A stretch of DNA of 64,000 nt, from positions 1 through 64,000 of the IMG/VR virus record IMGVR_UViG_3300036790_000270. The stretch is one strand, 5' to 3'. The notes beneath the pieces were generated by a model. It did not search any database. It saw only the letters and a list, made by a program, of their open reading frames with translations, and had not been told where the DNA came from. The DNA is from a virus. This document shows positions 24,047 to 45,290 of this stretch, in pieces. Position 1 is the first letter of the stretch; every line of letters starts with the position of its first letter. The translations under genes were made by a program, and so were the position numbers.

Positions 24047-25414
24047 GTGGCTTCAGACCTTGCCAAGTCGCTTCACGAGCAGGAGCAGGGAGTCTGGGGC
24101 AAGATTCAGTCCCTGGCCATGGCTGCCTCCGCCGAGAAGCGCAGTTTTACCGATGACGAGCAGCGCTCATTCGATGCGATGCACGCTGAGCTGGACGGCG
24201 TTGACAAGCGCCTGCGCGACATCCTTGAGGGTGAGAAGCGCCAGGCACAGACCGACGAGATGTACGCCGGCCTTGAGAAGCGCACGGGCACCCCGGGCAC
24301 GCACCGCCCGCTGAACAAGTTCGAGGAAGAGCTCCGGGCTTTCGCCCGCGGCGAGGTGCGCGCGATCGACGTCATCTCCTCGGAGTCCCGGATCATGCAG
24401 CGGCTGTCCACCGGCCGCCCCGTGAGCCCCACTGAGGTCCGTGTCCTGACCGACGCGTACATGCCGCCCGGCAGCTTTACCAACCAGACAAACGCCGGCA
24501 TCGTCCCGATTGACTTCTACGACCAGCTCCTGAGCTACCTGATTGAAGTCAGCGGCGTCATGCAGACTGGCCCCACGGTGCTGAACACCGCGGGCGGCGA
24601 GCCGATCCAGGTTCCCATTGTCCAGCAGCACACCGGCCTCACCACGGCTGGCGCCCAGGTGACCGTTTCCGCCGCGCAGTCCGCCACCCTGGCGACCGCC
24701 GACCCCGGCTTCGGCCAGAAGACCCTGACGGCGAACAAGTTCGGCATCCTCATTCAGGTCGCGCGGGAGCTGATCGACGACTCCGGCGTCAACCTGCTGG
24801 GCTACCTCGCCATGTCCTCGGGCCGCGCCATCGGTAACGCCCTCGGAAACGCGCTGGTCAACGGCGGCAACGGCATCACCGGGAGCATCCTTGCCGCGCC
24901 CGTCGCGGTTACCGGCGGCTCGGCCTCGGCAGTCAGCGCCACCAACCAGGCGCCCGGCGGCCCGTCCTACTCCAACCTGATCGACATGGAGTACAGCGTC
25001 ATCGCGCCGTACCGCCAGTCGCGGTCCTGCTACTGGCTGGCGGCCGATCACACGCTCGGCAACCTCCGCAAGCTGACTGACGCCATCGGCCGGCCCCTGT
25101 GGGAGCCGTCTACCGTCCTCGGCAGTCCCGACCTCCTGCTCGGCAAGCCGCTGGTCGCCGACCCGTTCATGCCGGCGATGGCCGCGGGATCGAGCATCTA
25201 CCCGATCGCGTTCGGCGACTTCAGCCAGTACTTCGTCCGGATGGTCGGCGGTGTCCGCTTCGAGCGGTCTGACGACTACGCGTTCGGCAGCGACCTGGTT
25301 TCCTTCCGGGCTGTTATCCGCGCCGACGGTAACCTGATGAACCCGCCCGTCTCGGTCACCCCGTCTCTCAAGGGCCAGCCGCTCGTGCTGTTCCAGAGTG
25401 CGGCAACGGGCTGA
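24047..25414 (+). CDS. Major capsid protein (HK97 fold)
   Basis: 455 residues. An N-terminal helical delta-like region (about 1-110, with EKRSFTDDEQRSFDAMHAEL) would be removed by the prohead protease. The body has typical capsid segments: a beta region GAQVTVSAAQSATLATADPGF, KFGILIQVARELIDDSGVNL, LGNALGNALVNGGNG, and the C-terminal VRFERSDDYAFGSDLVSFRA, close to the family ending. It builds the icosahedral shell. It has its own promoter and RNA leader. Confidence 0.95.
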   Translation: MASDLAKSLHEQEQGVWGKIQSLAMAASAEKRSFTDDEQRSFDAMHAELDGVDKRLRDILEGEKRQAQTDEMYAGLEKRTGTPGTHRPLNKFEEELRAFARGEVRAIDVISSESRIMQRLSTGRPVSPTEVRVLTDAYMPPGSFTNQTNAGIVPIDFYDQLLSYLIEVSGVMQTGPTVLNTAGGEPIQVPIVQQHTGLTTAGAQVTVSAAQSATLATADPGFGQKTLTANKFGILIQVARELIDDSGVNLLGYLAMSSGRAIGNALGNALVNGGNGITGSILAAPVAVTGGSASAVSATNQAPGGPSYSNLIDMEYSVIAPYRQSRSCYWLAADHTLGNLRKLTDAIGRPLWEPSTVLGSPDLLLGKPLVADPFMPAMAAGSSIYPIAFGDFSQYFVRMVGGVRFERSDDYAFGSDLVSFRAVIRADGNLMNPPVSVTPSLKGQPLVLFQSAATG

Positions 25415-27690: not shown

Positions 27691-28043
27691 ACGTGCACCA
27701 CAAGCGGATGCTGAAGCTATTCGGGCTGGTGGCTGCGCTGGTGGTGGTTCTCGGCACCGTGTACGGCGAGGTAACCCCGGCTGGCCCGTGGGACGGCATG
27801 TACTTCGCCGTGGTAACCGTGACGACCGTCGGGTACGGCGACATCGTCCCGCACGGCTGGGCCGCGCACCTGGTCGCCCTGGCGATCATGATCCTGATCA
27901 TCCCCGCCTGGGCCAGCGTGTTCTCCCTGCTTACCACCGCTATGCTGGCCAGCCACGTAGACGCGCAGACTCACCGCCAGACTGCCGAGATCAAGGAGCA
28001 CGTCAGTGACACTATGGGCAACGCGCAAGCCGGGCAGCAGTGA
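27687..28043 (+). CDS. K+-channel-like two-span membrane protein (118 aa)
   Basis: TM1 spans about 9-27 and TM2 about 60-85. Between them, the pore-helix/selectivity-filter segment FAVVTVTTVGYGDIVP (TVGYGD, residues 47-52) matches the potassium-channel signature exactly. The 118-residue length fits a minimal pore domain that would assemble as a tetramer. A polar helical tail follows. Start TTG 27687 overlaps the previous stop; GTG 27693 or ATG 27708 are alternatives. Virus-coded minimal K+ channels are known from algal viruses. Here it might depolarise the membrane during entry, exclusion or lysis, which is inference. Confidence 0.85.
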   Translation: MNVHHKRMLKLFGLVAALVVVLGTVYGEVTPAGPWDGMYFAVVTVTTVGYGDIVPHGWAAHLVALAIMILIIPAWASVFSLLTTAMLASHVDAQTHRQTAEIKEHVSDTMGNAQAGQQ

Positions 28044-28375: not shown

Positions 28376-28789
28376 AATAGTACTAGATGGTTTAACGGGG
28401 TAGTTCCGATGCCTAGCGTGTTGGCGATCACGGCTTACCTGTCTTACGAGTCTTTCACTGTTCAATACGGGAACGGTGAGTTCGGTCTAGCTGACTACTC
28501 GACAGCAGCAGATGTAGACACAGCAGTTGCGACGTTTGTTGAGGATGCGGGATTCCCGTGGATTGCTGTCGGTAGCGCGGGAAATATTCCGGATAACGAC
28601 AACGAAGTAGTTAACTGGACGCTCGCCATCAATCTCGGTAGTTGGGCGCTAACTTCATTGTCGGATAGTGGAGACGGACTAAGGGTTAACGGTAGCGGGA
28701 GTACGCCGGGTTACGCTCCGTGGGATAACTTTGCTGATGCCATGGCCGCGATCCTGTCTATCACGGGAAATTCTGCGTGGCCATCGTAG
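28373..28789 (+). CDS. Low-GC hypothetical protein (138 aa)
   Basis: MNSTRWFNGVVPMPSVLAIT begins a mostly beta, acidic protein with Trp/Asn-rich strands (VVNWTLAINLGSWALTSL) and a Gly/Ser loop (GLRVNGSGSTPGY). GC content is visibly lower than in neighbours and codon choice differs (more T- and A-ending codons), which suggests recent acquisition. It has a leaderless promoter, as phage moron genes often have their own. Function unknown. Confidence 0.7.
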   Translation: MNSTRWFNGVVPMPSVLAITAYLSYESFTVQYGNGEFGLADYSTAADVDTAVATFVEDAGFPWIAVGSAGNIPDNDNEVVNWTLAINLGSWALTSLSDSGDGLRVNGSGSTPGYAPWDNFADAMAAILSITGNSAWPS

Positions 28790-29490
28790 AACCTGTCCAC
28801 TGGTACCATTTCTTCTGCGGTAATGACGTTCTCTCCATGTGGGACGTGCCGCTCACTGAGCACGTCGCTGGCCTGCGCTCCGCTGGCTTTGACGGGAAGT
28901 GCTTGGTCGGTCTTGTCGGTGGTGCGGGGCAACAGGAAGACGCCCGGCGGTGGCTTGCTGCGTACTGGCCGGAAGCTGAAATCGCAGTAACGGCAGAAGA
29001 CGGCTTTGAACAGGTGACCCTAGCCGCACTGCACATGTGGTGTCAGGATGCCGACCCGGAAATACCAGTTTTTTACGGGCACACGAAGGGCGCTTTCTCT
29101 AACCACCCTGTTGCTGCCCCGTGGCGCCGGGCGATGACCGCAGTGTGCGTTGCCCGGTGGCGGGATCGCGTGGCTGACCTGGCGGCCGTTGACGCGGCCG
29201 GGCTGCACTGGCTGACACCGGAGGCATTTCCCGGTTACGTGAGCAGCCCGTTCTTCGGGGGTAACTTCTGGTGGGCGACAGCCGGGTACCTCGCGTCCCT
29301 CGCCCCGGTAGACCCCGGGGACGTTAACCGCTACAGCGCGGAAAGCTGGGTCGGCACCGGGAACCCGGTAGTGCGAGCGCTCAGCACCGCATGGCCGGAG
29401 TACGCGGGCTGCACCTTCCCGCCGGGGCGGCCGTTATGCGTATCCTCGCGTCGCACGACGGCGGCTCAGGGTGCAGCTGGTACCGGATGA
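28777..29490 (+). CDS. Glycosyltransferase-like protein (237 aa)
   Basis: The core VFYGHTKGAFSNHPVAAPWR...FFGGNFWWATAGYL (about 98-175) matches a family of putative capsule/LPS glycosyltransferase-like proteins that share Y-x-H-x-K-G and F-x-G-N-F-W-W-A. The N-terminal third (HWYHFFCGNDV, GFDGKCLVGLVG) may be a Rossmann-like part. GTG start overlaps the previous gene. The C-terminal 18 residues overlap the next gene. First of the sugar-modification block. Confidence 0.65.
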   Translation: MAIVEPVHWYHFFCGNDVLSMWDVPLTEHVAGLRSAGFDGKCLVGLVGGAGQQEDARRWLAAYWPEAEIAVTAEDGFEQVTLAALHMWCQDADPEIPVFYGHTKGAFSNHPVAAPWRRAMTAVCVARWRDRVADLAAVDAAGLHWLTPEAFPGYVSSPFFGGNFWWATAGYLASLAPVDPGDVNRYSAESWVGTGNPVVRALSTAWPEYAGCTFPPGRPLCVSSRRTTAAQGAAGTG

Positions 29491-30503
29491 TCATGCCGCT
29501 GACCGCGGTGAACGACCTCGCTGACGGGATCAGCGTTACATTCCGGGCTGGCGGCGGGAAGCTGATGAAAAACCCGCACCCCATGGTGACGGTCGCTGAC
29601 GGTGATAATGCCGACCTGGTTGTCTCCCAGCGGGCCAGTGAGTACCGCGGCCTCGGCCTGTGGCGCCGGTGGGGCAGCTCCCCGGCGCGGCGCACCGTTT
29701 ACGAGAACGACGACGACGTCTTCTCCATCACCCCGGAGAACGATGCTGCCTACGCTTCCTACAAAGAAGGCACCGACGTCCGGGAGGCGACCCTCCGCTA
29801 CTGCCGCACCGCCAACCTGATCACCACCACCAGCCCGCACCTAGGCGACCGGTTCCGGGAAATGTGCCCGCAGGTCCCGGTGGAGGTGCTGCCCAACTAC
29901 ATTCCCCGATGGGTCCTAGACTTGCCGCGAGACCCATTCGACAGGCGGCTCCGGATCGGCTGGGCCGGCGGCTCCTCGCACGCGCGGGACATCCACACCG
30001 CGACGTCGTCGGTCCGCCGGTTCATGACGCGGTTCCCCGGCTGGGACCTGTACCTGAACGGCATCGACTACCGGCGCCAGTTCCGCTGCCCGCCCGAGCG
30101 GTCCTTCCACGTCCCGTGGATACACGTTACCGACGAGCCGCAGCTTTACTACCGGGCTATCGACTTCGACATCGGCATCTGCCCGCTGCTGTCCACCCAG
30201 TTCAGCCGGTCCAAGAGCTGGATTAAGTCACTGGAGTACTTCAGCCGGGGCATTCCCGTCGTGGCCAGCGACGTCGAGCCGTACCGCCGGTTCATCGACC
30301 ACGGTGTCGACGGGTTCCTCTGCAAGACCGACCATGAATGGCTGAAGTACCTGTCCCTGCTGGCGGGCGATGAGGAACTCCGGCTGAAGATGGGCGCCGC
30401 GGCGAAAATGAAGGCTTCCGCTAACGTCATGGAAGACCATGTGCAAGAGTGGGTCAACGCTTACACGATGCTGTTCCCGATCGGCTGGGAGTATAAGGGC
30501 TGA
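29436..30503 (+). CDS. Glycosyltransferase (GT-B/GT4-like, 355 aa)
   Basis: MRILASHDGGSGCSWYRMIM opens a typical GT-B N-terminal domain. The C-terminal domain carries LRIGWAGGSSHARDI (about 160), YYRAIDFDIGICPLLSTQFSRSKSWIKSLEYFSRGIPVVAS (about 230-270, the E-x7-E-like donor region) and a FLCKTDHEWLKYL end. These proteins transfer a sugar from a nucleotide donor. Its start lies 55 bases inside the previous gene; a 15-codon extension is possible but lacks support. Confidence 0.85.
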   Translation: MRILASHDGGSGCSWYRMIMPLTAVNDLADGISVTFRAGGGKLMKNPHPMVTVADGDNADLVVSQRASEYRGLGLWRRWGSSPARRTVYENDDDVFSITPENDAAYASYKEGTDVREATLRYCRTANLITTTSPHLGDRFREMCPQVPVEVLPNYIPRWVLDLPRDPFDRRLRIGWAGGSSHARDIHTATSSVRRFMTRFPGWDLYLNGIDYRRQFRCPPERSFHVPWIHVTDEPQLYYRAIDFDIGICPLLSTQFSRSKSWIKSLEYFSRGIPVVASDVEPYRRFIDHGVDGFLCKTDHEWLKYLSLLAGDEELRLKMGAAAKMKASANVMEDHVQEWVNAYTMLFPIGWEYKG

Positions 30504-30506
30504 TGT

Positions 30507-30869
30507 ATGAGCCGAAACTGTTACGTTAGGGGTGCCCTGCCAGCCTGCGAGCAGCAAGGATGCCAGGCTCCGGCGCTAGCCGCGCTGTCACGCCGCCTGT
30601 CTGAGCAGGCGCACACGGTCCTAGAGACGCTAGACAAGAAGGGAACGCAGATGCAGCCGACTAAGGCGCTGTGGTGCGAGCAGAGCGGCCACCCGTTCAG
30701 CGAGAAGGACCCGGACGTTCAGGTGCTTACGATTACCGGCCGTAGCCCGGACGGGGAGACGGTAGAGGAGTCGCGGACCAGCTGCGGGGAGTGCGCCGCT
30801 GTGGCGAAGACCCGGCTCGGCAAGGTACGCAACAGCCAGGTTTCCCAGCTTCCGCCTAGCGACTCGTAA
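30507..30869 (+). CDS. Small hypothetical protein (120 aa; possibly 72 a shorter form)
   Basis: ATG 30507 gives a 48-residue Ala/Arg/Cys-rich extension; an internal ATG at 30651 has a better AAGGGA site and would give 72 residues beginning MQPTKALWCEQSGHPFSEKD. The latter part has WCEQSGHPF...SCGECAAVAKTR, a CxxC pair and a Cys/His that could bind one zinc. Coupled to the epimerase gene. Function unknown. Confidence 0.7.
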   Translation: MSRNCYVRGALPACEQQGCQAPALAALSRRLSEQAHTVLETLDKKGTQMQPTKALWCEQSGHPFSEKDPDVQVLTITGRSPDGETVEESRTSCGECAAVAKTRLGKVRNSQVSQLPPSDS

Positions 30870-31832
30870 ATGAAGTACCTGGTAACCGGCGGGGCCGGGT
30901 TCGTCGGCAGCAGCCTGGTGAAGCGGCTCGTTGCCGACGGGCACGAGGTCACCGTCCTCGACGACATGTCCCGGGGCAAGCCTGAGCGGCTAGACGGCGT
31001 TAGCTGTCAGGTTAAGCCAGGCGACATACGCGATTCTTACCTGGTCAAGCGGGCGATGCACGGCTGCGACGCCGTCGTGCACCTTGCCTACCTTCAGGGT
31101 ACGCAGACGTTCTACGCTGAGCCCCGCCAGGTTCTTGACGTCGCCGTGCGCGGAATGCTTACCGTCCTGGACGCGTGCGAGGCCACCGGCTGCGCCGACC
31201 TGCTGCTGGTCTCCTCGTCGGAGGCGTACCAGGTAGCTCCTGTCGTGCCTACTCCCGAGGACATACCGCTGACCGTCCCCGACGTGCTCAATCCCCGCTA
31301 TTCCTACGGCGGCGGCAAGATCGCCTGCGAGCTGATGGCCCTGGCCTGGCAGCGGACTGGGGTCCTCGACCGCCTGGTCATCGCCCGGCCGCACAATATC
31401 TACGGCCCCGACATGGGCCGCGAGCACGTTATCCCCGAGTTCTGCGACCGGATGACCGTATTGAACCGGGAGCAGCCCGAGGGAACTATCCCGTTTCCCG
31501 TTCAGGGCACCGGTCAGGAAACCAGGTCGTTCTGCTATATCGATGACTGTATTGACCAGCTGGCGGTACTTGCCCGCGAAGACTGCTCCGTTGAGGGTGT
31601 CTACCACGTCGGCACCATGGACGAGTGGCGCATCGAGGACGTCGCCGGGCTGATCGCCTGGAATTACGGCCGCGACATTAAGCTCATGCCGGGTACCCTG
31701 CCCAAGGGCTCCCCGCCCCGCCGGCTGCCCGATACTGCTAAGATCCGGTCACTGCGTACCGAGTGGCACCAGACTCCGTTCCGCGAGGGTCTCACCAAGA
31801 CCGTCGAATGGTACCGCGCTAATGAGCGGTGA
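30870..31832 (+). CDS. NAD-dependent nucleotide-sugar epimerase/dehydratase (320 aa)
   Basis: Extended short-chain dehydrogenase. NAD site TGGAGFVG (residues 6-13), LDDMSRG after strand 2, VHLAYLQGT, LLVSSSEAYQV with the active Ser region, and YSYGGGK with the Tyr-x3-Lys pair (about 149-153). RPHNIYGPD and the C-terminal RSFCYIDD complete the family pattern. Related enzymes are UDP-glucose epimerases and dTDP-sugar dehydratases; substrate is not readable. It is followed by a sugar C-methyltransferase and a cupin isomerase, so it probably makes or remodels a deoxysugar. No gap to the preceding stop. Confidence 0.92.
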   Translation: MKYLVTGGAGFVGSSLVKRLVADGHEVTVLDDMSRGKPERLDGVSCQVKPGDIRDSYLVKRAMHGCDAVVHLAYLQGTQTFYAEPRQVLDVAVRGMLTVLDACEATGCADLLLVSSSEAYQVAPVVPTPEDIPLTVPDVLNPRYSYGGGKIACELMALAWQRTGVLDRLVIARPHNIYGPDMGREHVIPEFCDRMTVLNREQPEGTIPFPVQGTGQETRSFCYIDDCIDQLAVLAREDCSVEGVYHVGTMDEWRIEDVAGLIAWNYGRDIKLMPGTLPKGSPPRRLPDTAKIRSLRTEWHQTPFREGLTKTVEWYRANER

Positions 31833-32946
31833 GACTGACACTTGCGGCGGCTGCGGCACTGCCGGCCTGATCCCGGTTTTTGACATGGGACGCCAGCCTC
31901 TTGCCGAGGGCGCGTCCTCCCGCAGCTACCCCCTGTGCCTGGTCAAGTGCCCGCGCTGCGGCCTTGTCCAGCTTGACTACATCGTCGACCCGGCCGAGGT
32001 ATTCCCGAAGGACCACCCGTACTCGACAGGAAACTCTGCGGCGCTGCGCGAGCATTACGGCCGTCTAGCCCGGGACCTCGCTACAAACCTGTTCACCGAT
32101 GACGTCGTCGTTGACATCGGCGCCAACGACGGGACGCTGCTAGCCTGCTACCCGCCGGGCGGCCTGGTGAAGGTCGCCGTTGAGCCGACGGACCAGGGAA
32201 AGAAGATCCCGGCGGGCATCACCTGGGAGAAGGGCTCCTTCACTGCGAATCTCGCCATAGGTATTCGCGAGGGATACGGCCCGGCCAAGGTGATCACCGC
32301 GATGAACGTTCTCGCGCACGTGCCCGACGTGCACGATTTCCTCGACGGCGTTGCTGAGCTGCTGCACGACGACGGGGTGTTCGTCACTGAGAACCACGAC
32401 CTGTACAGCATCACCGAGGGCCTGCAGATCGACACGATTTACCATGAGCACCTGCGCTACTACACCGTCGGCACTCTCGCTCACCTGCTAGAGCAGCACG
32501 GGCTGCACGTCACCCGCTCAGAGCCGACCCCGATGCACGGCGGGTCGTTCCGCGTTCGGGCGCGCAAGGTCGCCCCTGGTTTCCAGAGGCGGGCCAGGTC
32601 CGCGGCGACCGCGCTGCGCGGCATGCTGTGGCAGCTCGTCGACAAGCACCAGGCTGTCTACGGTATCGGCGCAACCACCCGCGCGACCCCGCTGATCCAT
32701 TACGCCGGCATCAAGGACCTCGTCGACTGCGTTTGCGAGCGGCCAGGTAGCGACAAGATAGGCACGTGCATCCCAGGTACCGCGATCGAGGTAGTCGACG
32801 AGGCCCGGCTCATTACCGACCAGCCGCCGTACGCCCTGCTGTTCGCCTGGCACATCGCTGACGACATCGTTCCGAAGCTGCGCGCGGCCGGGTACAAGGG
32901 GAAGTTCATCGTGCCGCTGCCGAGCCCGGAGGTCCTTGATGACTGA
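31822..32946 (+). CDS. Sugar C-methyltransferase (TylC3/NovU-like, 374 aa)
   Basis: Three-domain layout of nucleotide-sugar C-methyltransferases: an N-terminal zinc domain (CGGCGTAGL...CPRCG, about 8-48), a SAM-binding core (VVVDIGANDGTLL, about 95-107; ENHDLYSITEGLQIDTIYHEH with the catalytic His/Tyr segment), and a C-terminal domain starting near YGIGATTRATPL. Such enzymes add a methyl to carbon 3 of a 4-keto deoxysugar. Overlaps the epimerase gene by 11 bases. Complete. Confidence 0.9.
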   Translation: MSGETDTCGGCGTAGLIPVFDMGRQPLAEGASSRSYPLCLVKCPRCGLVQLDYIVDPAEVFPKDHPYSTGNSAALREHYGRLARDLATNLFTDDVVVDIGANDGTLLACYPPGGLVKVAVEPTDQGKKIPAGITWEKGSFTANLAIGIREGYGPAKVITAMNVLAHVPDVHDFLDGVAELLHDDGVFVTENHDLYSITEGLQIDTIYHEHLRYYTVGTLAHLLEQHGLHVTRSEPTPMHGGSFRVRARKVAPGFQRRARSAATALRGMLWQLVDKHQAVYGIGATTRATPLIHYAGIKDLVDCVCERPGSDKIGTCIPGTAIEVVDEARLITDQPPYALLFAWHIADDIVPKLRAAGYKGKFIVPLPSPEVLDD

Positions 32947-33310
32947 GCTAGGCCGCTTCGAGGACGAGCGCGGTGTCATTCAGGACCTGCTAGCCGGCCC
33001 TGTCGATTCCGTCACCGAGATCTTTACGCGGGCCGGGGCCGTCCGTGGTAATCATGTGCATGCTGAGACTGTCCAGTGGACTTACGTTGTCTCCGGCAGG
33101 CTCCGCGTAGTGCATCAGTCGGCGGGCGCTGAGCCGGCTGCTAACGAATGCGGTTCCGGCGAGCTGATCTGCGATCCGATGGGCGTTGCCCACGCCTGGC
33201 AGGCAGTGGAGGACACGACAGTTCTCGTCTTCACGCGGGGCCCGCGCTCGGGGGCGGACTACGAGGACGACGTGCAGCGGCTAGCCCCGGGGGACAGGCT
33301 GATTCCGTGA
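32939..33310 (+). CDS. Cupin sugar isomerase-like protein (123 aa)
   Basis: A cupin barrel of the WxcM/FdtA type: an opening FEDERGVIQDLLAG, then GAVRGNHVHAETVQWTYVVSGRLRV (metal or substrate His-rich strand), and CDPMGVAHAWQAVEDTTVLVF. dTDP-4-keto-6-deoxyglucose 3,4-ketoisomerases share this pattern. ATG 32939 overlaps the upstream stop. Direct linkage with the epimerase and C-methyltransferase supports deoxysugar synthesis. Confidence 0.85.
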   Translation: MTELGRFEDERGVIQDLLAGPVDSVTEIFTRAGAVRGNHVHAETVQWTYVVSGRLRVVHQSAGAEPAANECGSGELICDPMGVAHAWQAVEDTTVLVFTRGPRSGADYEDDVQRLAPGDRLIP

Positions 33311-34011
33311 GCACTGCCGTTATCATCCCTACCTTCGGCCGCGCGGGCAAGATGGCGGCCGTCACCCGGAACATCCTGGAGGCCAGCCACGCGCCGCTGA
33401 ACGTGTTCTTCGTGGTGGAGCGAGACGACGCGGAGTCTGTAGCGGAAGCCGGGCGGCTATTTGACGAGAACATCGTCAGCGTAGTAAACACCCGGAAGCA
33501 GTCATATGCCGGTGCGGTCAATACCGCCGTCAGTGCGCTGCTAGACCTAGAGTGGGAGTACTTCTTCCTGGGCGCGGACGACCTCGACTTCAAGCCCGGC
33601 TGGGATACCGAGGCCCTGCGGGCAGCTCAAGACGGCGCGCTGGTGATCGGCACTAACGACCTGCATAACCCTTACGTCCTAGCCGGAACTCACGCCACGC
33701 ACGTCCTGGTGCACCGGGATTACGTCACTGACCCGCGTTATGCCTACGACCCGGATATGGCGGGGCAAGTGATGTTCGAGGGTTACGATCACAACTTCGT
33801 CGACACTGAGTTCGTTGACGCGGCCAAGGCAGCTGGTGTCTTTACCCCGTGCATGACCTCCGTAGTGGAGCACCTCCACCCCGACTGGGGCCTGTCCCCG
33901 TGGGATGCCACGTACGCGAAGACCCGTGCGCGTATTCATGATGATCACGGGCTATTCCGGTCTCGCGAGCACTTGTGGACAGCGCACCCGGACGGAAGGC
34001 AGCTGCTGTGA
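33307..34011 (+). CDS. Glycosyltransferase, GT2-like (234 aa)
   Basis: GTG 33307 overlaps the cupin stop as GTGA. STAVIIPTFGRAGKMAAV is the classical GT-A start. EYFFLGADDLDFKPGW (about 80-95) contains the metal-binding Asp motif. The C-terminal half (AGTHATHVLVHRDYV, FEGYDHNFVDTEFV) has the acceptor-side residues. It is a processive-type or single-sugar transferase by family. An upstream extension in the cupin frame is rejected. Confidence 0.88.
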   Translation: MSTAVIIPTFGRAGKMAAVTRNILEASHAPLNVFFVVERDDAESVAEAGRLFDENIVSVVNTRKQSYAGAVNTAVSALLDLEWEYFFLGADDLDFKPGWDTEALRAAQDGALVIGTNDLHNPYVLAGTHATHVLVHRDYVTDPRYAYDPDMAGQVMFEGYDHNFVDTEFVDAAKAAGVFTPCMTSVVEHLHPDWGLSPWDATYAKTRARIHDDHGLFRSREHLWTAHPDGRQLL

Positions 34012-34637
34012 CCATTCCACTCGTCAGCATCATCACCTCGACCTGGCAGCGGAACGAGCGGCTGCTCAACCGGTGCATCCCGTCGGTCCAGGCACAGGCG
34101 TACCCGAAAGTCGAGCACGTCATCGTCTCCGACGGCCCTGACCCGGACCTCGCTGACCAGATTGCCCTCCTGGACAGCCGGCTCGCATTCGCCCACCCGG
34201 TGCACTTCCTCGAACTGCCCGAGCACGACCCGGAGCGGCACTGGGGGCACCATGCGCGGCTGGCGGCCCTCGCGCGTGCCAAGGGTGACCTGATCGGCTA
34301 CTGCGATGACGATGACTCGCTGCGCCCGGACCACATCCGGCTGCTCGCGCAGGCACTGAAAGACGACCCGTCAGCTAGCTGGGCGTACTCCGTCATGGCG
34401 TCCTACAGCCACGCGGGTGTCTGCGAGATCGGTCACGGCGCTCCCGCGGGCGGCCAGATCGGCACACCGGTGATCATGCACCGCCGCGAGGCCCTGCAGC
34501 ACGGCACCTGGGGGCCGGCCTCGCCGATGGAAGACTGGCAGCTGGTGCAGCGCTGGACGGAAGCCGGGCTTACCCACGCGCATATCCAGGATGTCACCGT
34601 TGACGTCTGGCCCTCTGCGTACCATGAGCATTTCTGA
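34008..34637 (+). CDS. Glycosyltransferase, GT2-like (209 aa)
   Basis: GTG 34008 shares bases with the previous stop. TIPLVSIITSTWQRNERLLN is the GT-A opening, and DLIGYCDDDDSLRPDHI (about 93-109) holds the metal-binding Asp cluster. SPMEDWQLVQRW (about 178-189) matches the E-D-W acceptor/base segment. Second GT2 enzyme in tandem, so at least two different linkages are likely built. Confidence 0.9.
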   Translation: MTIPLVSIITSTWQRNERLLNRCIPSVQAQAYPKVEHVIVSDGPDPDLADQIALLDSRLAFAHPVHFLELPEHDPERHWGHHARLAALARAKGDLIGYCDDDDSLRPDHIRLLAQALKDDPSASWAYSVMASYSHAGVCEIGHGAPAGGQIGTPVIMHRREALQHGTWGPASPMEDWQLVQRWTEAGLTHAHIQDVTVDVWPSAYHEHF

Positions 34638-34639
34638 CC

Positions 34640-34813
34640 ATGGAGCGTGTTGTCCTGCCGGTGTGGCTCGTGCTCATGCTCGGCATGCCCGGGTTCATGA
34701 TCGTGATGCTCGTATCCGGGTACCCGCAGGGACTCGCCATGATCTTCGTCATGGTCATCATGAGCTGGGTAGCAGGGCAGATACTTGAAGACTTGTCCCG
34801 GGGGAATTCCTGA
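34640..34813 (+). CDS. Small two-span membrane protein (57 aa)
   Basis: MERVVLPVWLVLMLGMPGFM is a first hydrophobic helix, and GLAMIFVMVIMSWVAGQIL is a second. It begins two bases after the glycosyltransferase stop. Methionine-rich. It could anchor the glycosylation enzymes or be holin-like; the sequence does not decide. Confidence 0.65.
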   Translation: MERVVLPVWLVLMLGMPGFMIVMLVSGYPQGLAMIFVMVIMSWVAGQILEDLSRGNS

Positions 34814-34822
34814 GCCGCGTGG

Positions 34823-34837
34823 TAGCGTGACCCCATG
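34823..34837 (+). promoter_or_regulatory. Leaderless promoter of gene 34835
   Basis: TAGCGT (34823-34828), six bases, then ATG. Confidence 0.5.
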
Positions 34838-34996
34838 AGCACGCCTGAGCCACTTGACGAAGAGCAGGCACCCAAGGTAGAGGTCCGTGGCGGCGACCGG
34901 GAAGCCGACTGGAACACGCCGCTGTCGTACCTGCCTGCTTACGAGGATGCCGGTGCCGGCTGCGGTCCGGACTGCGCCTGCCACGAGGATGAGTGA
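34835..34996 (+). CDS. Small acidic protein (53 aa)
   Basis: MSTPEPLDEEQAPKVEVRGG is acidic and Pro-rich, and the C-terminus CGPDCACHEDE carries three Cys and a His that could bind metal. The stop overlaps the next start as GTGA. A leaderless -10 element lies upstream. Function unknown. Confidence 0.6.
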   Translation: MSTPEPLDEEQAPKVEVRGGDREADWNTPLSYLPAYEDAGAGCGPDCACHEDE

Positions 34997-35583
34997 GCGG
35001 GCAGGTACGGCAGCGGCGTGACCAGCTGTTCCTTCAGGCTGCCCTCGTAATCCGGCAGGTTCAGCAGGCTGAGCACCGGTGGTTCGCCCAAGGGGACCCG
35101 GCTTCTCCTACGCTGCCCTGGATGCCGTTCCAGCCCGCCGACTTCCTCTCGATCGTCTTCGAGTGCGTCCCGGAGATGAAAGGCGGCCGGTGGTTCATTG
35201 ACGTCGGGTGCGGGCCCGGTACCAAGATGCAGCTTGCCCGGCAGTTCTTCGGGCTTGAGGCCGAGGGCATCGAGATCGACCGGCCGATGGCGGAAGCGGC
35301 GGCTGCCTACGGCACTGTCTTCGCGGCTGACGCCCTGGACACGCCTCCCGGTTTCTATGCCGAGTACGACCTGGTCTGGCTGTACCGGCCGTTCCGTGAC
35401 GTGCAGCTGGAAGAGAAGCTTGAGTCCCGCGTCATGAACGAGATGAAGCCCGGCGCGATCCTGGCCGGCGGCAGCTGGGAGCACTGCCCGGCGGAGTACG
35501 GCTGGATACCCGTCATGGACGACTGGGAGCTGCGCCGCGGCGCCTGGATGAAGCCACGCCCGGTTGCTGACCTAGTGCTGTGA
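34993..35583 (+). CDS. SAM-dependent methyltransferase-like protein (196 aa)
   Basis: WFIDVGCGPGTKMQLARQFF (about 66-85) is motif I of class I methyltransferases, followed by EAEGIEIDRPMAEAA (acidic motif II) and FAADALDTP. Family members methylate small molecules, sugars or proteins. It is the second methyltransferase of the sugar block and might O-methylate a glycan. Coupled on both sides by GTGA overlaps. Confidence 0.85.
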   Translation: MSGQVRQRRDQLFLQAALVIRQVQQAEHRWFAQGDPASPTLPWMPFQPADFLSIVFECVPEMKGGRWFIDVGCGPGTKMQLARQFFGLEAEGIEIDRPMAEAAAAYGTVFAADALDTPPGFYAEYDLVWLYRPFRDVQLEEKLESRVMNEMKPGAILAGGSWEHCPAEYGWIPVMDDWELRRGAWMKPRPVADLVL

Positions 35584-35861
35584 AAAACCTGGCGACCTAC
35601 CTGGCGCACTTCCACCTAACGGGATTCGGCTGGTACTGGGTCGTCTGGTTCGTCTTCGGTTTCGGCGTGCCCGAAGCGTACGGACTGCTCCGCAACACCC
35701 AGGACACCCTGAGCTGGCAGTTCTGGGGACTTGAGCGCATTAACTTCCAGCATCCTTTCGATTTCTCTGACTGGACCTGGGAGCACTACCTGATCGGCGT
35801 CATGCTGCTAGCCGGCTTCGTGTGGCTTTTCTTTCACCTGGTTGACGGTATCTGGCGCTAG
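35580..35861 (+). CDS. Trp-rich membrane protein (93 aa)
   Basis: KNLATYLAHFHLTGFGWYWV begins the first hydrophobic segment (about 14-32). A soluble middle (NTQDTLSWQFWGLERINFQH) precedes a second span (YLIGVMLLAGFVWLFFHLV, about 69-87). Ten tryptophans in 93 residues are notable. Short two-span phage proteins of this sort are often annotated as holins; that call is weak here. Confidence 0.7.
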   Translation: MKNLATYLAHFHLTGFGWYWVVWFVFGFGVPEAYGLLRNTQDTLSWQFWGLERINFQHPFDFSDWTWEHYLIGVMLLAGFVWLFFHLVDGIWR

Positions 35862-36648: not shown

Positions 36649-37173
36649 ATGTCCTGGTCTGTTAGTGCCATCTTCCAGCAGTCACTGCTGAACCCGCTGA
36701 TGGGCAAGGCCACCGGGTCTACCAACCCCACCACTTTCGGGAGCTGGACGGCCGACACCATCGACGTCGCCCTGTTCCTGACTGGCGCTACCCCGGATAA
36801 AACGGCGGCGTTTGCCTCAATCGGTTACAACACAGGCAGCGTTTGGACTACGGCGAATGAGGCCCCGGGCACCGGCGGGTACACCCAGGGCGGCACGGCG
36901 CTCGCGTCCAAGGCGAACACCGTTGACTCAGGTTCTTCTTCCCTGTGCTTCACGGCGGCTAACCCAAGCTGGACGAGTGCCACCATCTCCGGCGTGTTCG
37001 GGGACTTCGTCTACGATGCCTCGATCACCGCTACCGGCAGCACCGTCACCAAGCAGGGGCTCTGCTTCAACTACTTCGGCGGCTCGCAGTCGGTCACCTC
37101 GGGCACCTTCACCATTCAGTGGGCCACCCCGCCCAGCGGCGGCGTTACCGCGGTCTTCAACGTCAGCGTCTGA
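36649..37173 (+). CDS. Phage surface-type beta protein (174 aa)
   Basis: MSWSVSAIFQQSLLNPLMGK is followed by Thr/Ser/Gly-rich beta strands (WTADTIDVALFLTGATPDKT, YDASITATGSTVTKQG). The low-charge composition resembles head or tail decoration proteins with immunoglobulin-like folds. One base separates it from the previous stop. Function is a guess from composition. Confidence 0.7.
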   Translation: MSWSVSAIFQQSLLNPLMGKATGSTNPTTFGSWTADTIDVALFLTGATPDKTAAFASIGYNTGSVWTTANEAPGTGGYTQGGTALASKANTVDSGSSSLCFTAANPSWTSATISGVFGDFVYDASITATGSTVTKQGLCFNYFGGSQSVTSGTFTIQWATPPSGGVTAVFNVSV

Positions 37174-37208
37174 CCTTCCCTCCGCTTTACCCCGGGAGGC
37201 GGTGAGGC

Positions 37209-38708
37209 ATGACGATCGCCGCCGTGCCGTCGGGTGGCGCGCTTGGTTCCGCGACCGCCAAGACATTCACCCTGACGCCCAGTACCGTCGGCGACTTCAT
37301 CCTGCTCTGGGTGACCGCGGAGACCGTTGCGGATTATGCCGTTTCGATCAGTAGCAGCAACATCAGCTGGGTTGTCACGCCCCTGGTCGCCCATCACGCG
37401 TTTACGAACAACCTGGTCGTTCAGTCTGTTTTCATCGGTGAGGTCACCAGCACCAGCGGTGCCACGCAGACAATCGTTACGGCCGCGGGCAGCCCGACGC
37501 TCCGGATCGCCTGGCAGGAATTCAGCACTACGGCCGGGTACGCGTCGATCACCCTCAACGTATCGGGTACCACAGACACCCTTTCTAGCGGCACGATGCC
37601 GCCGGTCACCACCACCGTTACCGGTTGCACTTACGCGGGCTACGTCTACGACAACGGCTCCGGTGTCATCGGTACTACCAGCGGTTACAAGTACCAGCTA
37701 GACACCAACAGCAACCAGTACGCGTACAGCACGACGCCTCTGGGCATTAGCACCTACACCCCGAATATCGGTGACGCGAACGGCACGTCCGGTATCGCTG
37801 TCGCCGTCTACGAGGCCGGGGTCACAGCCAGCGCCGGCCTCGCCCACGGCACGGGCGCCGCCCTGCAGCCGCAGGCAGGCTCCGTCGGCCTTCCGGCCGG
37901 CACTGGCACCGCCCAGCCGCCGACAGCGCAGGTCACTGCCCTTGCGGGGCTCGCCCACGGTGCCGGCACCGCGCAGCAGCCGCAGTTCGGCATTGCTAAC
38001 CCGCCTGCCGCCACGGGCACCGGCACCGCGCAGCAGCCGGCCGCTCAGGTCACTGCCCTCGCCGGGCTCGCGCACGCTGCCGGTACCTCCTTCCAGGTGC
38101 CGGCGCCCGCGGGGCTCGCGCACGGCACCGGCACCGCGCAGCAGCCGTCAAAGCTCGTCGAGCCGTCTGCCGGGCTAGCCGCCGGGGCCGGCAACGTGTT
38201 CCAGCCGACACCGCGCATCCTGCGCAACCCGCAGAACCTCGGTGCCGTCGTCACCCCGCTCGGTCCTAACGCGACCGCCGAGCTTCCGGTCACCGGCGGC
38301 ACCCTCACCCTCGCTGACCTGGGCGCGACCTTCGCCCTGGCTAACCTCGGCGCAAGCCTGACGGGATGGACCATGCAGACAGCCACGCTGAACATCCTTG
38401 AGTTCAACGACGTGACGATCAACCTCGCCATTACCAACAACGGCAGCGCGTACAACCTGGCGTCCGCCACGCTGAACATGCTGTTCAAGAGCGCCGCCGG
38501 CACGCCGGACGCGGACGCGCTGCTCTTCTCCTCCGCGGGCGGCTCCCCGGCCATCACCATCACCAACTCAGCTGGCGGCCTGGCGACCGTGCAGATCCCC
38601 AACGACGACCTGGATACCGAGGCGTACAACTTCTACCGGGTCGACGTGGTTGTCGGCGGGTTCCAGAACACCTGCATCAGCGGGTCGGTCACCTGGACGA
38701 GCCTGTAG
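37209..38708 (+). CDS. Repeat-containing surface protein (499 aa)
   Basis: The N-terminal domain (1-200) is beta-rich (TLTPSTVGDFILLWVTAETV, SGTTDTLSSGT). Residues about 205-330 are seven or eight units of AGLAHGTGTAQQP-like repeats linked by Pro/Gln. The C-terminal domain (about 345-499) again looks like a beta-sandwich (TLNILEFNDVTINLAITNNG). The design, two folded ends joined by a repetitive stalk, suits a virion fibre or adhesin. A GGAGG site lies within a small hairpin upstream. Confidence 0.8.
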   Translation: MTIAAVPSGGALGSATAKTFTLTPSTVGDFILLWVTAETVADYAVSISSSNISWVVTPLVAHHAFTNNLVVQSVFIGEVTSTSGATQTIVTAAGSPTLRIAWQEFSTTAGYASITLNVSGTTDTLSSGTMPPVTTTVTGCTYAGYVYDNGSGVIGTTSGYKYQLDTNSNQYAYSTTPLGISTYTPNIGDANGTSGIAVAVYEAGVTASAGLAHGTGAALQPQAGSVGLPAGTGTAQPPTAQVTALAGLAHGAGTAQQPQFGIANPPAATGTGTAQQPAAQVTALAGLAHAAGTSFQVPAPAGLAHGTGTAQQPSKLVEPSAGLAAGAGNVFQPTPRILRNPQNLGAVVTPLGPNATAELPVTGGTLTLADLGATFALANLGASLTGWTMQTATLNILEFNDVTINLAITNNGSAYNLASATLNMLFKSAAGTPDADALLFSSAGGSPAITITNSAGGLATVQIPNDDLDTEAYNFYRVDVVVGGFQNTCISGSVTWTSL

Positions 38709-38734
38709 CCTTTCCCGGCTGCCTGACGTGCCGT

Positions 38735-38806
38735 TAAACTCAAGGGGAACTGCCGCGGCCTGAACCAGGAGCCGGCATCGGGATTGACCACGATGCCGGA
38801 GTCCTG
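38735..38806 (+). promoter_or_regulatory. Late leader with P1-CGG-P2-AGC RNA motif, copy C
   Basis: -10 TAAACT (38735-38740). P1 TGCCG/CGGCA (38751-38755, 38773-38777), CGG 38756-38758, P2 CCTG/CAGG (38759-38762, 38766-38769), AGC 38770-38772. P3 CGGCATCG/CGATGCCG (38773-38780, 38791-38798) reuses all of P1'. GGAG and ATG follow. Confidence 0.65.
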
Positions 38807-39223
38807 ATGACGATCCTCCTGTCCAGCACTTTCACCGACAACCTGCTCGGCACGGGAACTGAGGGCGTCGCCACCCAGATCGGCAGCGGCACGCTCATTA
38901 TTTACAGTGGCGCTGCCCCGGCGGGCCCGAACGAGTCCCTGTCCGGCAACACGGCGCTGGCGACTTTTACGTTCTCAGTTGCGGGCAGCCAGGGCTCTCC
39001 GGCCGGCGGCGTGATGGACCTGGCGTTCTCCGCTACCACTGTCACCGCCGCCGCCTCCGCGACCGCGACGTTCTTCCGCATTGCCAGCTCGGGCAGCACC
39101 GCCCTGATCCAGGGGACGGTAGCTGTCAGCGGCGGGGACTTCAACCTGTCCAGCACGGCCATCACCTCCGGCGACAACGTAACCATTACCGGCACGCCGA
39201 CGATCTCCTGGCCGGTGAGCTAA
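38807..39223 (+). CDS. Beta-rich structural-type protein (138 aa)
   Basis: MTILLSSTFTDNLLGTGTEG runs into a repetitive Ser/Thr/Ala/Gly beta protein (NTALATFTFSVAGSQGSPAG, ITSGDNVTITGTPTISWPVS). Similar in style to 36649. Its own promoter and RNA leader suggest high or timed expression. A head-decoration role is possible. Confidence 0.7.
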   Translation: MTILLSSTFTDNLLGTGTEGVATQIGSGTLIIYSGAAPAGPNESLSGNTALATFTFSVAGSQGSPAGGVMDLAFSATTVTAAASATATFFRIASSGSTALIQGTVAVSGGDFNLSSTAITSGDNVTITGTPTISWPVS

Positions 39224-39225
39224 CC

Positions 39226-39840
39226 ATGGCCAACCAGCAGTGGGTCTGCCTGCTTAACGGCGGCAACCCGTACAGCGCCGGCGCCGGCGCCGCCCTTAGC
39301 TCGGCTGCCACGGCCACCATCTCGCCGGTTAACGGCGTCGCCTCCAACCCGCCGGACATGGCGCAGGTTCAGGCAGCCGGCCAGTCTTACGGCTGGTACC
39401 CCGGCATGCTGGTCCGCGTCACCGCCCGCGGGTACCTCACCACCACTGGCACCAGCGGCACCGTCACGTTCTTCCTCGCTAGCCGGGTCGGTAACTCCGG
39501 CAGCACCTGGGTCACCCTCGCGACCGCCGCCGCCCTGACTACCGGGACGGGCTCGCTAGCCGGCCTGCAGTGGGAGCTGGACGCGCTGTCCCAGTGCACT
39601 GCGGTCGCCGCCACCGGGAACACGGTATCGACGCAGGGGAACCTCACCCTTGTCCCCGTCGCCGCCCAGACGATTCCCACTGGCACCGCGGACATCGTCC
39701 TGTCCCTGCCGAACGCCTCCGGTGTGACCGCGGCGGCGGTCGACACCACGCAGCTGCAGGGGATCTCCATGCGCTGCACCCAGGCGACCAGCGCGTGCAC
39801 CGTCCAGCTCACCCAGTGGCTTGTAGAAGCACTGGACTAG
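39226..39840 (+). CDS. Structural-type protein (204 aa)
   Basis: MANQQWVCLLNGGNPYSAGA opens a protein with a long Ala/Ser/Thr-rich body and well-spaced beta strands (MLVRVTARGYLTTTGTSGTV, GSTWVTLATAAALTTGTG). The composition resembles jelly-roll capsid or tail decoration proteins. Two bases after the previous stop. No family assigned. Confidence 0.7.
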   Translation: MANQQWVCLLNGGNPYSAGAGAALSSAATATISPVNGVASNPPDMAQVQAAGQSYGWYPGMLVRVTARGYLTTTGTSGTVTFFLASRVGNSGSTWVTLATAAALTTGTGSLAGLQWELDALSQCTAVAATGNTVSTQGNLTLVPVAAQTIPTGTADIVLSLPNASGVTAAAVDTTQLQGISMRCTQATSACTVQLTQWLVEALD

Positions 39841-39872
39841 CCAGGCCGCCCGTGCCCGGAGGGCGGTGACGC

Positions 39873-42260
39873 ATGACGACCTACCGGCTGTTCCCGTCCA
39901 CCAGCGGGCCGTCGGCCGCCACCAGCTTCAGCGGCGCCTACGGGACCGGCACCAAGTTCCAGGTGACCGCGGGCGGCCTGTGGCTGGCCGGCTTCTGGTG
40001 GTGGGTGTGCGCAACGGGCTCGCAGTCCACCGCGGCGCAGCCGTTCTGCCTGTGGCAGGTGACTGCGTCAGCGGCAGGAATACTCCTGTCCCCGGGTGTG
40101 TCCGTCACTTCCGGCACCTTGTCCGCCGGGTGGAACTACGTCCCGCTGGCCACCCCGGTTGCCCTTACGCAGGGTGCCACTTACCAGGCGGCGACTGCGT
40201 TCAGCAACGCGTTCCCGCTGACCAACAGCCAGTACGCCACCGGTGGCGCCTACGCGGCGGGCATCGTCAACGGGCCGCTCACCGCGTTCAGCGACGGCAC
40301 CGGCACCAACCCGGACCCGTACAGCAACAGCCAGTGCGCCTACCAGACCTCAAGTACCGACCCGACGGTCACGTTCGCCACCGACGGGGACTCCGGGTTC
40401 AACGGCTGGCTGGACGTCCAGGTCACCGACCAGGCGCCCGCCGGGGCCAGCTACCGGATCTGGCCGGACTACCCGGACGTGCTGGTCGGCGTCAGCAGCG
40501 ACACCACCGGCTACATCCTGGCCACCGAGTTCTCCGTGTCGGCGGCCAGCGCGCTCGACCGGATCTGGCACTACTCGCCGTCCGGCGCCGCCTCCCTGCC
40601 GACCCGCTGCAGTATCTGGAACGTCTCCACCACGACGGAGCTCAGCGGCGCGGGTAACACCTCACCGGCGTGGCTGCTGCCCGGCGGCGCCAGTGCCTCG
40701 GCCGGCGGCGGCTGGGTCTACTGCGACTACACCTCTGCAGGGGTAACGCTGGCTGCCGGCACCAGTTACAAGGTCGCCACCTACCACGCCAGCGGCAGCG
40801 AGTGGATGGCGGTCACCCCGGACTACTGGTCAACCGGCGCCGGCACGTCCGGGATCACCAACGGCGTCATCTCCGCGCCGAACAGCGCCTCGGCCAGTCC
40901 CGGGCAGGGCTCGTACGAGACGACCTGGTCCTATCCGTCGCTGTTCATCACCGGCGGTGAGAACTACTGGGTCGACGCGGAGGTCACCCCGCTCACCGCT
41001 ACGGCCGTGCTGCCCGTCCCGCCGCTGCCCGTTCCCCCCGGGCGCCTGTCCCCGGCGGCCTTCCGCTTCTACGCCCGCCCGGTGTCAAGCCCCGCGGCGG
41101 CGGTTAACGCCGAGTCCGGCTCGCTTGCTGTCGCACTGCCCGCCCTCACCACAGCCCTGGCGGGCGCGACCGGGCACAAGGGCCCGCTTGCCGTCACGCT
41201 GCCCACCCTGACGACGTCGCTGGCGGGTACTGCCCAGCACACCGAATCAGGTTCCCTCGCTATCGCGCTGCCGACCCTGACGACGACGCTGACCGGTGCC
41301 GACGGGCATAACGGCGCACTGGCGGTCACGCTGCCCGCCGTGGCGACCAGCCTGGCCGGAACCGCGCAGCACACGGAATCCGGCTCTTTCACGGTCACGC
41401 TGCCGACGCCGGCGACCTCGCTGACCGGTGCCGACGGGCACGGCGGCGCGCTTTCCGTCGTGCTTCCCGCAATGGTGACGTCGCTGAATGCGGCGCGGGG
41501 CGGCGGCGGTGCCTTCACGATCACGCTGCCGGCTCTTGTCACCTCGCTGGCGGGTACCGCGCAGCACACCGAGTCGGGCCCGCTTGCCGTCGTGCTGCCC
41601 GCGCTAGTTAGCAGCCTGACGGGCGCGGCCGGGCACAAGGGCCCGTTCACGGTCACGCTGCCGACCCTGGCGACATTGCTGGCGGGCACGTCGCAGCACA
41701 CCGAGTCCGGGCCGTTCACGGTCACGCTGCCGGCTCTCGTCACGTCGCTGACCGGAACCAACGGGACGCCAGGCGCGGTAACCGGCGCGTTCCTGATCGA
41801 GCTGCCCCCCGGCAAGCGTGACCAGGCGGAAACCGGGCCGCTCGCGCTGCCGCTGCCGGCCCTGTCCCTGAGCCTGACCGGGGAGCACGGCCGCCAGGGC
41901 GCCCTGCAGCTGGCACTGCCGGCACTCGTCACCGGGCTGGCCGGCCACGCGCCGGTCGTGATCCCCGGGGCGTTCACCCCGTCGCTTCCCGTCCCGGTAA
42001 CCGGCCTGACCGGGAAGGTCGCGCACTGCGGCCCGCTAGGGATCTCGTTCGGGATACCCGGTGACGGCCTGACCCGCTTCCAGATGTTCGGCGCTGAGTC
42101 TCGCGGCGCCGCCGTGCTAACGCTTCCCGTGCCCCGGCTGACCATGGCCGCGCAGGTACCCGACGAGCCAGGCACCCGTTCCCATTTCCGGCTCGGCCGC
42201 TGGATTTCCGCCCGGCTGCCCCGCAAGTACAGCCAGACCGAAGAAGAGGAGACACCGTGA
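39873..42260 (+). CDS. Large repetitive surface protein (795 aa)
   Basis: The N-terminal half has two DUF4082-like beta-sandwich modules (FQVTAGGLWLAGFWWWVC near 30-50; LATEFSVSAASALDRIWHY near 210-230) of a type seen in cell-surface and phage proteins. Residues about 410-640 are roughly ten 20-24 residue repeats of the form L-x-V-x-LPxLxTSLxGxxxHxxxG. The C-terminal end is basic (SHFRLGRWISARLPRKYSQT). It resembles a tail or capsid fibre that displays a repetitive beta shaft. The ATG follows a hairpin that holds the GGAGGG site. Confidence 0.8.
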   Translation: MTTYRLFPSTSGPSAATSFSGAYGTGTKFQVTAGGLWLAGFWWWVCATGSQSTAAQPFCLWQVTASAAGILLSPGVSVTSGTLSAGWNYVPLATPVALTQGATYQAATAFSNAFPLTNSQYATGGAYAAGIVNGPLTAFSDGTGTNPDPYSNSQCAYQTSSTDPTVTFATDGDSGFNGWLDVQVTDQAPAGASYRIWPDYPDVLVGVSSDTTGYILATEFSVSAASALDRIWHYSPSGAASLPTRCSIWNVSTTTELSGAGNTSPAWLLPGGASASAGGGWVYCDYTSAGVTLAAGTSYKVATYHASGSEWMAVTPDYWSTGAGTSGITNGVISAPNSASASPGQGSYETTWSYPSLFITGGENYWVDAEVTPLTATAVLPVPPLPVPPGRLSPAAFRFYARPVSSPAAAVNAESGSLAVALPALTTALAGATGHKGPLAVTLPTLTTSLAGTAQHTESGSLAIALPTLTTTLTGADGHNGALAVTLPAVATSLAGTAQHTESGSFTVTLPTPATSLTGADGHGGALSVVLPAMVTSLNAARGGGGAFTITLPALVTSLAGTAQHTESGPLAVVLPALVSSLTGAAGHKGPFTVTLPTLATLLAGTSQHTESGPFTVTLPALVTSLTGTNGTPGAVTGAFLIELPPGKRDQAETGPLALPLPALSLSLTGEHGRQGALQLALPALVTGLAGHAPVVIPGAFTPSLPVPVTGLTGKVAHCGPLGISFGIPGDGLTRFQMFGAESRGAAVLTLPVPRLTMAAQVPDEPGTRSHFRLGRWISARLPRKYSQTEEEETP

Positions 42261-44461: not shown

Positions 44462-44527
44462 GGAAGTTCCGGGAACAAGAAGCCATTCGACGCCGCTGCC
44501 GCCCGCGATCTCGACGAGACCCGGTGA
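44459..44527 (+). CDS. 22-residue leader peptide
   Basis: MGSSGNKKPFDAAAARDLDE and two more residues end in GTGA, overlapping the next start. It appears to be translated from a leaderless transcript and probably serves to couple translation into the tail-terminator-like gene. Confidence 0.45.
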   Translation: MGSSGNKKPFDAAAARDLDETR

Positions 44528-44997: not shown

Positions 44998-45290
44998 TGG
45001 CGCACGCTTACCTGTCGACCGCCTGCTATCACAGCAAGCACGGCGTCTTGTGCCGCCAGACGTGCAAGTACTGTGACGCGCCCTGCTCGTGCACCTGCCA
45101 CCGGGGCATTCTCCCGGTACCGTGGGTCGATCAGGCGCGAGCCGTTGCTGCGGAGCTGTTCAGCGCGATTTACCCGGCTGACGTGCCCGATGCCCTAGCG
45201 CAGCGAATCGAGACTGACCCGGCCTTGTTCTGGCTGCGCGGCGAGATAGCACCGGACGGGCAATGGCACGAACCTGGGGACGAGGGTTAG
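44994..45290 (+). CDS. Small Cys/His-rich protein (98 aa)
   Basis: GTG 44994 overlaps the previous stop; ATG 44997 is the alternative. CYHSKHGVLCRQTCKYCDAPCSCTCH (about 11-36 in pieces) holds seven Cys and three His, probably two zinc ions. An acidic helical C-terminus follows. Its location among structural genes is unexplained. Confidence 0.7.
   Translation: MMAHAYLSTACYHSKHGVLCRQTCKYCDAPCSCTCHRGILPVPWVDQARAVAAELFSAIYPADVPDALAQRIETDPALFWLRGEIAPDGQWHEPGDEG

Follow-up and report, generated by a model that had tools for sequence, protein, structure and literature searches.

A conserved phage gene cassette predicted to make a C-methylated ketosugar lies beside capsid genes

What does a phage do with a row of sugar-nucleotide and glycosyltransferase genes that lies between its capsid gene and its tail genes? 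This question is raised by the virus record IMGVR_UViG_3300036790_000270 (117,211 bp) of an uncultured soil phage, the first 64 kb of which constitute the window analyzed here. On the + strand of this window, terminase, portal, protease, and an HK97-type capsid protein are followed by the cassette in question and then by the tail terminator and the major tail protein. We conclude that the cassette is real and conserved and that it encodes a phage pathway to a C-methylated ketosugar, along with dedicated transferases, next to the capsid genes; we infer its chemistry and its acceptor. The cassette core consists of three genes, which we call D, E, and F.

All genes of the cassette lie on the + strand and are designated A to J. 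They encode a GT-A-fold protein of the GNFWWA family and putative glycosyltransferase (A, 28777-29490), a GT-B (GT4-type) glycosyltransferase (B, 29436-30503; PF00534, and phrog_7162 with an E value of 2e-38), a product of 120 amino acids without assigned function (C, 30507-30869), a UDP-glucuronate-decarboxylase-like short-chain dehydrogenase/reductase (SDR) for nucleoside diphosphate (NDP) sugars (D, also EPIM, 30870-31832), a sugar C-methyltransferase of the TcaB9/TylC3/NovU type (E, also CMT, 31822-32946), a ketosugar-type cupin epimerase/isomerase (F, also CUP, 32939-33310), two GT2 glycosyltransferases (G, also GT2a, 33307-34011, PF00535; H, also GT2b, 34008-34637, PF00535 with an E value of 8e-15), and a second S-adenosylmethionine (SAM) methyltransferase (I, 34993-35583; weak PF13649/MetW). 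Gene J (35580-35861), which overlaps gene I and encodes a small membrane protein according to hydropathy (phrog_3555), is a doubtful member. Pfam and NCBIfam confirmed the GT-B/GT4, SDR, three-domain C-methyltransferase, cupin, GT2, and second methyltransferase families, and the enzyme genes that an initial annotation had named at 28777-35583 are thus all present. Their starts had to be corrected for the GT-B (29436), the cupin (32939), and the GT2 genes (33307 and 34008), and gene C had not been listed. The description as overlapping genes holds for 28777-34637, where all junctions are tight or overlapping, but not for gene I, which is separated from gene H by a gap of about 355 bp with two very short open reading frames (ORFs).

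The cassette ORFs are real and no chance ORFs, because they have homologues in other viral contigs and because the ratio of nonsynonymous to synonymous changes (pN/pS) against the closest relatives is 0.28-0.66 for genes A, B, C, D, E, F, H, I, and J. Even gene C is kept in the two closest relatives at 60-72% identity, with a pN/pS of 0.41-0.51 and a coding signal that is strongest from 30651.

The best matches of D among solved structures in the PDB are UDP-glucuronate decarboxylases (UXS; human UXS1, E value 2e-43), ahead of 4-epimerases and dehydratases. In a tree with reference enzymes, the phage and bacterial D sequences form one clade of their own (100/100) on the UXS side (92/85), apart from the RmlB and GMD clades (each 100/98 or better) and also from GalE- and LegB-like sequences. 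The signature of UDP-xylose synthases comprises T/S, S, E, Y, K, Arg144, Asn176, and Arg277 in UXS1 numbering (PMC12820599, Table 3), and D has S116, S117, E118, R143, Y146, K150, N176, and R285 at the signature positions, all of which are invariant in 30 phage sequences apart from the nearly invariant S116. R285 aligns with the column of UXS1 R277 and ArnA R619, and the ArnA arginine has served to recognize decarboxylases in antibiotic clusters (PMC10338323). An arginine in this column is missing from the RmlB, GMD, GalE, and LegB-like sequences, and an RxPD motif is missing from RmlB, GMD, and LegB-like sequences. An assignment of D as a 4,6-dehydratase of the RmlB/GMD type is not supported, as D has SSE and RYSYGGGK instead of the RmlB signature TDE-YSASK and lies outside both clades.

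Homologues of D (47-57% identical) were compared in 80 bacterial and archaeal loci. E accompanies D in 70 of them and, among the 74 with a called D gene, follows it with no gene in between in 62; a nucleotide-sugar dehydrogenase lies near D in 50/80, and the cupin F occurs in only 1/80. These loci (L057-L136) present a set of dehydrogenase, D, E, NUDIX, and GT2 genes with a variable slot (Gfo/Idh, DegT, or RmlD-like). A dehydrogenase of 239-269 amino acids with an FxGxCWPKD motif and without the C-terminal domain is also found in nine related phage cassettes. These dehydrogenase neighbors in bacteria and phages speak for UDP-glucuronate as the probable substrate of D. As D groups with UXS and not with RmlB or GMD, the likeliest product, judged from the sequences, would be a C-methylated ketopentose nucleotide derived from UDP-glucuronate of the host, and not a 6-deoxyhexose. 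The initial proposal that keto-deoxysugars are built and methylated is therefore retained with respect to a ketosugar nucleotide and its methylation, but not with respect to the 6-deoxyhexose.

Along its full length, gene E matches TcaB9 (PDB, E value 1.5e-72) and further sugar 3-C-methyltransferases, with a Zn-binding N-terminal domain, a SAM domain, and a C-terminal Methyltransf_14 domain (Pfam Methyltransf_13/23/14). When the Tyr, His, and Glu residues that we take to be catalytic in TcaB9 were mapped onto the alignment of both proteins, the active site appeared intact; C43, C46, Y67, H166, Y207, E209, and H210 are invariant and C8 and C11 nearly so. E is thus predicted to be a C-methyltransferase of a ketosugar nucleotide of the TcaB9/TylC3/NovU class. 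A 79% DNA match of 48 bp between the E gene and a site at 41.6 kb seems to be a chance similarity of GC-rich DNA.

The AlphaFold model of F (predicted local distance difference test, pLDDT, 94.5) matched an RmlC homologue, FdtD/FdtA, CapF, and StrM in Foldseek searches (E values of about 1e-6, probability 1.00), and F is accordingly modeled with the fold of the ketosugar cupins (RmlC, FdtA/QdtA, CapF C-domain group). All of these act beside a 4-keto group, which D would supply. The designation as a ketoisomerase in the initial annotation was too specific, because F resembles 3,5-epimerases, 3,4-ketoisomerases, and CapF about equally in Foldseek, and only the ketosugar cupin stands. H39, H41, Q46, and H85 are invariant and might bind a metal; in CapF, a Zn enzyme, His290 is a ligand. 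Weak matches of F to oxalate decarboxylases in a PDB search by sequence only were overruled by the structural match to ketosugar cupins. A B12-binding radical SAM protein (c39), which is perhaps an alternative sugar-modifying step, was seen in seven related loci without a recognized cupin (L035, L037, L038, L039, L042, L043, and L056).

The products of gene B, a GT-B enzyme, and of genes G and H, both GT2 enzymes (TRANSFERASES), are the recognizable transferases of the cassette; G is 28-31% identical to the GT2a of other cassettes, in a slot that varies among relatives. Gene A, with its HFxGNFWWA motif, has 21 viral relatives at 27-66% identity; it had no match in Pfam, PHROG, or NCBIfam and nothing meaningful by sequence in the PDB. 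Its initial description as transferase-like gains from an AlphaFold model (pLDDT 85, predicted template modeling score 0.84) with a predicted GT-A fold, matched by VIA to heparosan synthase 2 (Z 12.5) and B4GALNT1 (Z 12.0). As nucleotidylyltransferases such as GlmU score nearly as high in VIA, the fold alone is no proof of glycosyltransferase activity, and YGHTKG stands at the strand end where DxD is expected; a transferase activity is nonetheless likely on the basis of the model. A GlmU-like function was set aside, since no N-terminal nucleotidylyltransferase signature could be made out by eye. Gene I has relatives at 33-73% identity in 12 cassettes, the window counted, and probably serves O-methylation of the sugar. 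No transmembrane segment was detected by hydropathy in the products of genes A to I, which fits cytoplasmic acceptors.

A scan of viral contigs with D gave 54 relatives at 51-81% identity. E adjoins D in 53 of these, the lone exception stopping at a contig edge, and F was found in 41. In 34 loci, including the window, an HK97 major capsid protein (MCP) lies upstream, with D following 1.4-7 kb after it, and in 11 loci D sits 0.9-4 kb after an unrelated capsid protein of 640 amino acids with a match to the major head protein of Alicyclobacillus phage MMB025. Loci L050-L055 form a third set that belongs to neither capsid context, and two of them (L051 and L053) have their own terminase-portal-protease-capsid module beside the cassette. 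The cassette core is thus placed beside three different head modules. The smallest cassettes hold D, E, F, and a single GT2 between two small Ser/Thr-rich proteins. Among 50,697 deposited phage records, D had no close relative (best 31%), E had none either (seven records at 25-29%), genes F, A, G, and H had no match, and no donor-making gene set of the D-E-F kind was found. Among the papers covered, literature searches turned up no report of a phage C-methyltransferase or branched-sugar cassette.

Covariation of the cassette genes with the capsid gene was assessed by Mantel rho values on pairwise identities in 16 non-redundant loci. The MCP correlated with the GT-B (rho 0.84) and, when the copy nearest to the C-methyltransferase was taken, with GT2b (0.80), but not with D (0.04) or E (0.01), while D, E, and GT2a correlated mutually (0.46-0.62). 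In a set of 15 loci with portal, the capsid-portal value was 0.50 versus 0.86 for capsid and GT-B. Simple linkage is no explanation for this covariation, because in 18 of 21 loci it is D, not the GT-B, that lies closer to the capsid gene. In our reading, B and H are fitted to the capsid protein, and D, E, and GT2a are exchanged between phages as a swappable sugar module within a capsid-matched apparatus.

The explanation that we favor, with moderate confidence, is that an actinobacterial phage builds its own C-methyl-branched sugar nucleotide and attaches it to virion proteins in the cytoplasm. D would oxidize an NDP-sugar at C4 to the ketone; with UDP-glucuronate, the likeliest substrate, CO2 would be lost and a UDP-4-ketopentose formed. 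F would epimerize or isomerize next to the ketone, and E would methylate a carbon adjacent to it. The final 4-ketone could be reduced by the host or, in the manner of UXS enzymes, by D through its own NADH; neither a ketoreductase nor an aminotransferase was seen in the cassette. Gene I might be an O-methyltransferase. This sugar and sugars of the host would be placed on capsid or head-tail proteins by the transferases B, G, H, and probably A, an acceptor suggested by the position of the cassette and the soluble nature of the enzymes. As would be expected of a virion glycosylation system, the glycosyltransferases are phage-encoded and linked to structural genes. UDP-glucuronate or UDP-glucose would be supplied by the host. 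A host origin of the activated donor had already been suggested because no sugar-1-phosphate nucleotidylyltransferase was seen in the window, and this is supported: no nucleotidylyltransferase of the NTP_transferase family was found in the whole 117-kb record, with a control that was positive in 14/14 genomes, and no nucleotide-sugar (UDP-glucose) dehydrogenase either.

Several points weigh against this scheme, of which we infer the substrate, the order of steps, the product, the 4-ketone reduction, and the acceptor. The missing UDP-glucose dehydrogenase is one of them, and the lack of a recognized ketoreductase in the cassette is another. D does not have the SPASPxxY active-site loop of UXS, reading YLQGTQTFY, and forms its own clade and not one inside UXS; we therefore call it UXS-like and not UXS, and its substrate may differ. 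The position beside head genes can merely reflect late expression, and the covariation is based on identities in few loci (16), with a GT2b value that depends on the paralogue taken.

With the same role in the virion, D could in principle act like a 4,6-dehydratase, and the sugar would then be a C-methyl 6-deoxyhexose as in the noviose and mycarose pathways. The family of E is best known from such pathways (TcaB9 and 3-C-methyltransferases), the S-S-E residues of D are present also in LegB- and GMD-type dehydratases, and LegB gave the top NCBIfam score for D, though far below the cut-off. We nevertheless consider this unlikely, as UXS1 is the top solved structure by about ten orders of magnitude ahead of the dehydratases, as R285 and the RxPD motif are missing in RmlB, GMD, and LegB-like sequences, and as a dehydrogenase is often a neighbor of D-E. 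The genes could also be mere cargo without a tight role in the particle, in line with glycosyltransferase slots that vary even among close relatives (G was not found in loci L003 and L004, though D is 79-82% identical there), but purifying selection, intact active sites, and the fixed D-E pair beside capsids in more than 50 contigs make this the least credible explanation.

Targets other than the virion, namely the host surface and DNA, had been named in the initial annotation as well. An altered surface polysaccharide of the infected host, which might for instance keep out superinfecting phages, would agree with bacterial D-E homologues that lie together with GT2 and membrane-protein genes in what look like polysaccharide-type clusters, and with further GT2, deacetylase-like, and GH16-like proteins at 75.7-78.6 kb of the record. 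As the products of A to I have no membrane segment, no flippase or polymerase was recognized nearby, and both the late structural location and the capsid covariation speak against it, we regard this as improbable. A modification of the phage's own DNA bases in order to escape restriction is compatible with soluble glycosyltransferases, and phages are known to attach pentoses to cytosine (Shewanella phage Thanatos, PMC12838424). The record has, however, no member of the thymidylate-synthase (ThyA)/hydroxymethylase families (ALTERNATIVES), the genes adjoin head genes in three different head modules within the head-tail region, and the GT-B and GT2b track the MCP, so that DNA appears a very improbable target.

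As for the surroundings of the cassette, the terminase (16729-18297), portal (20339-22063), protease (22148-23533), and MCP (24047-25414; phrog_10, E value 7.5e-50), the latter being a candidate acceptor, are all encoded on the + strand, as are the tail terminator (start at 44524) and the major tail protein (start at 46791). An additional GT-B-like protein (45263-46363, + strand; PF13524, E value 4e-16; neighbors phrog_17840 and phrog_10528) between the latter two may have a role in glycosylation of the tail (tail tube). The host is probably an actinobacterium, since the terminase is about 30-36% like those of Rhodococcus, Mycobacterium, and Arthrobacter phages; a megablast search of 20-44 kb against deposited phages gave no match. 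Directly 5' of the cassette, a small protein with the potassium-channel selectivity-filter motif TVTTVGYGD is encoded (27708-28043), and directly 3' lie Ser/Thr/Ala-rich repeat proteins (36649-42260), which are candidate glycan acceptors or fibers. An ORF at 2696-4207 (- strand) has the look of a GMC-type oxidoreductase at its N-terminus. Farther along the record, the N-terminal sequence at 109441-110295 (- strand; L160:9941-10795) appeared Ku-like by eye, and a processive-looking GT2, a polysaccharide-deacetylase-like protein, and a GH16-like protein stand in a row at 75741-78568 (L158), also read by eye; this set is possibly envelope-directed and separate from the cassette.

Virion glycosylation of phages was demonstrated only recently and is as such already known; what appears to be new is a set of phage genes that would make a C-methyl-branched sugar donor. 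In dozens of uncultured phages, what is probably a dedicated route to an unusual branched sugar is encoded next to unrelated capsid genes, and it seems to be exchanged as one block. We tentatively suggest a 'virion serotype' module of soil actinophages, in which a pathway to a C-methyl-branched pentose nucleotide that is unreported in phages would be swapped, together with its own GT2, inside a conserved, capsid-matched glycosylation frame and also be paired with unrelated capsids. If true, it would be a phage counterpart to bacterial antigenic or serotype cassettes and would connect the chemistry of the capsid with the encounters of the particle in soil, such as adsorption, predators, and proteases. 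The findings also point to a widespread bacterial nucleotide-sugar route of dehydrogenase, D, and E.

These bacterial and archaeal neighborhoods resemble the cassette in the relatedness of D and in an E gene immediately downstream in diverse organisms, and differ by the near absence of F and by NUDIX, Gfo/Idh, DegT aminotransferase, or RmlD-like neighbors. In the everninomicin EvdS6 pathway, an actinomycete decarboxylase that releases UDP-4-ketoxylose likewise feeds a branched pentose-derived sugar; the branch is proposed to come from acetyl transfer and not from a C-methyltransferase, and the pathway belongs to secondary metabolism without a phage (PMC10338323). In chlorovirus PBCV-1, too, the glycan of the capsid is made with nucleotide-sugar enzymes and cytoplasmic glycosyltransferases that the virus itself encodes, but it is a eukaryotic virus with GDP-fucose and GDP-rhamnose enzymes and not homologous as a system (PMC5408694). 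The nearest cultured parallel is Streptomyces phage KimJongPhill, genes 4-6 of which encode a UDP-glucose dehydrogenase, a methyltransferase, and a GT-B directly before the terminase and capsid genes. The GT-Bs, gene 6 in KimJongPhill and gene 5 in Zuko (Zukovirus), are 30-31% identical to gene B, and the annotation of that stretch shows no D-E-F core. According to the accounts in PMC12363180 and PMC12691614, which cite Freeman et al. 2023, glycosylated virions, with sugars on the capsid and tail tube, are an established finding in mycobacteriophages Che8, Corndog, and Myrna. As described there, these are actinobacterial phages with their own glycosyltransferases, and the present cassette would add to such a system a three-enzyme pathway to a C-methylated ketosugar donor.

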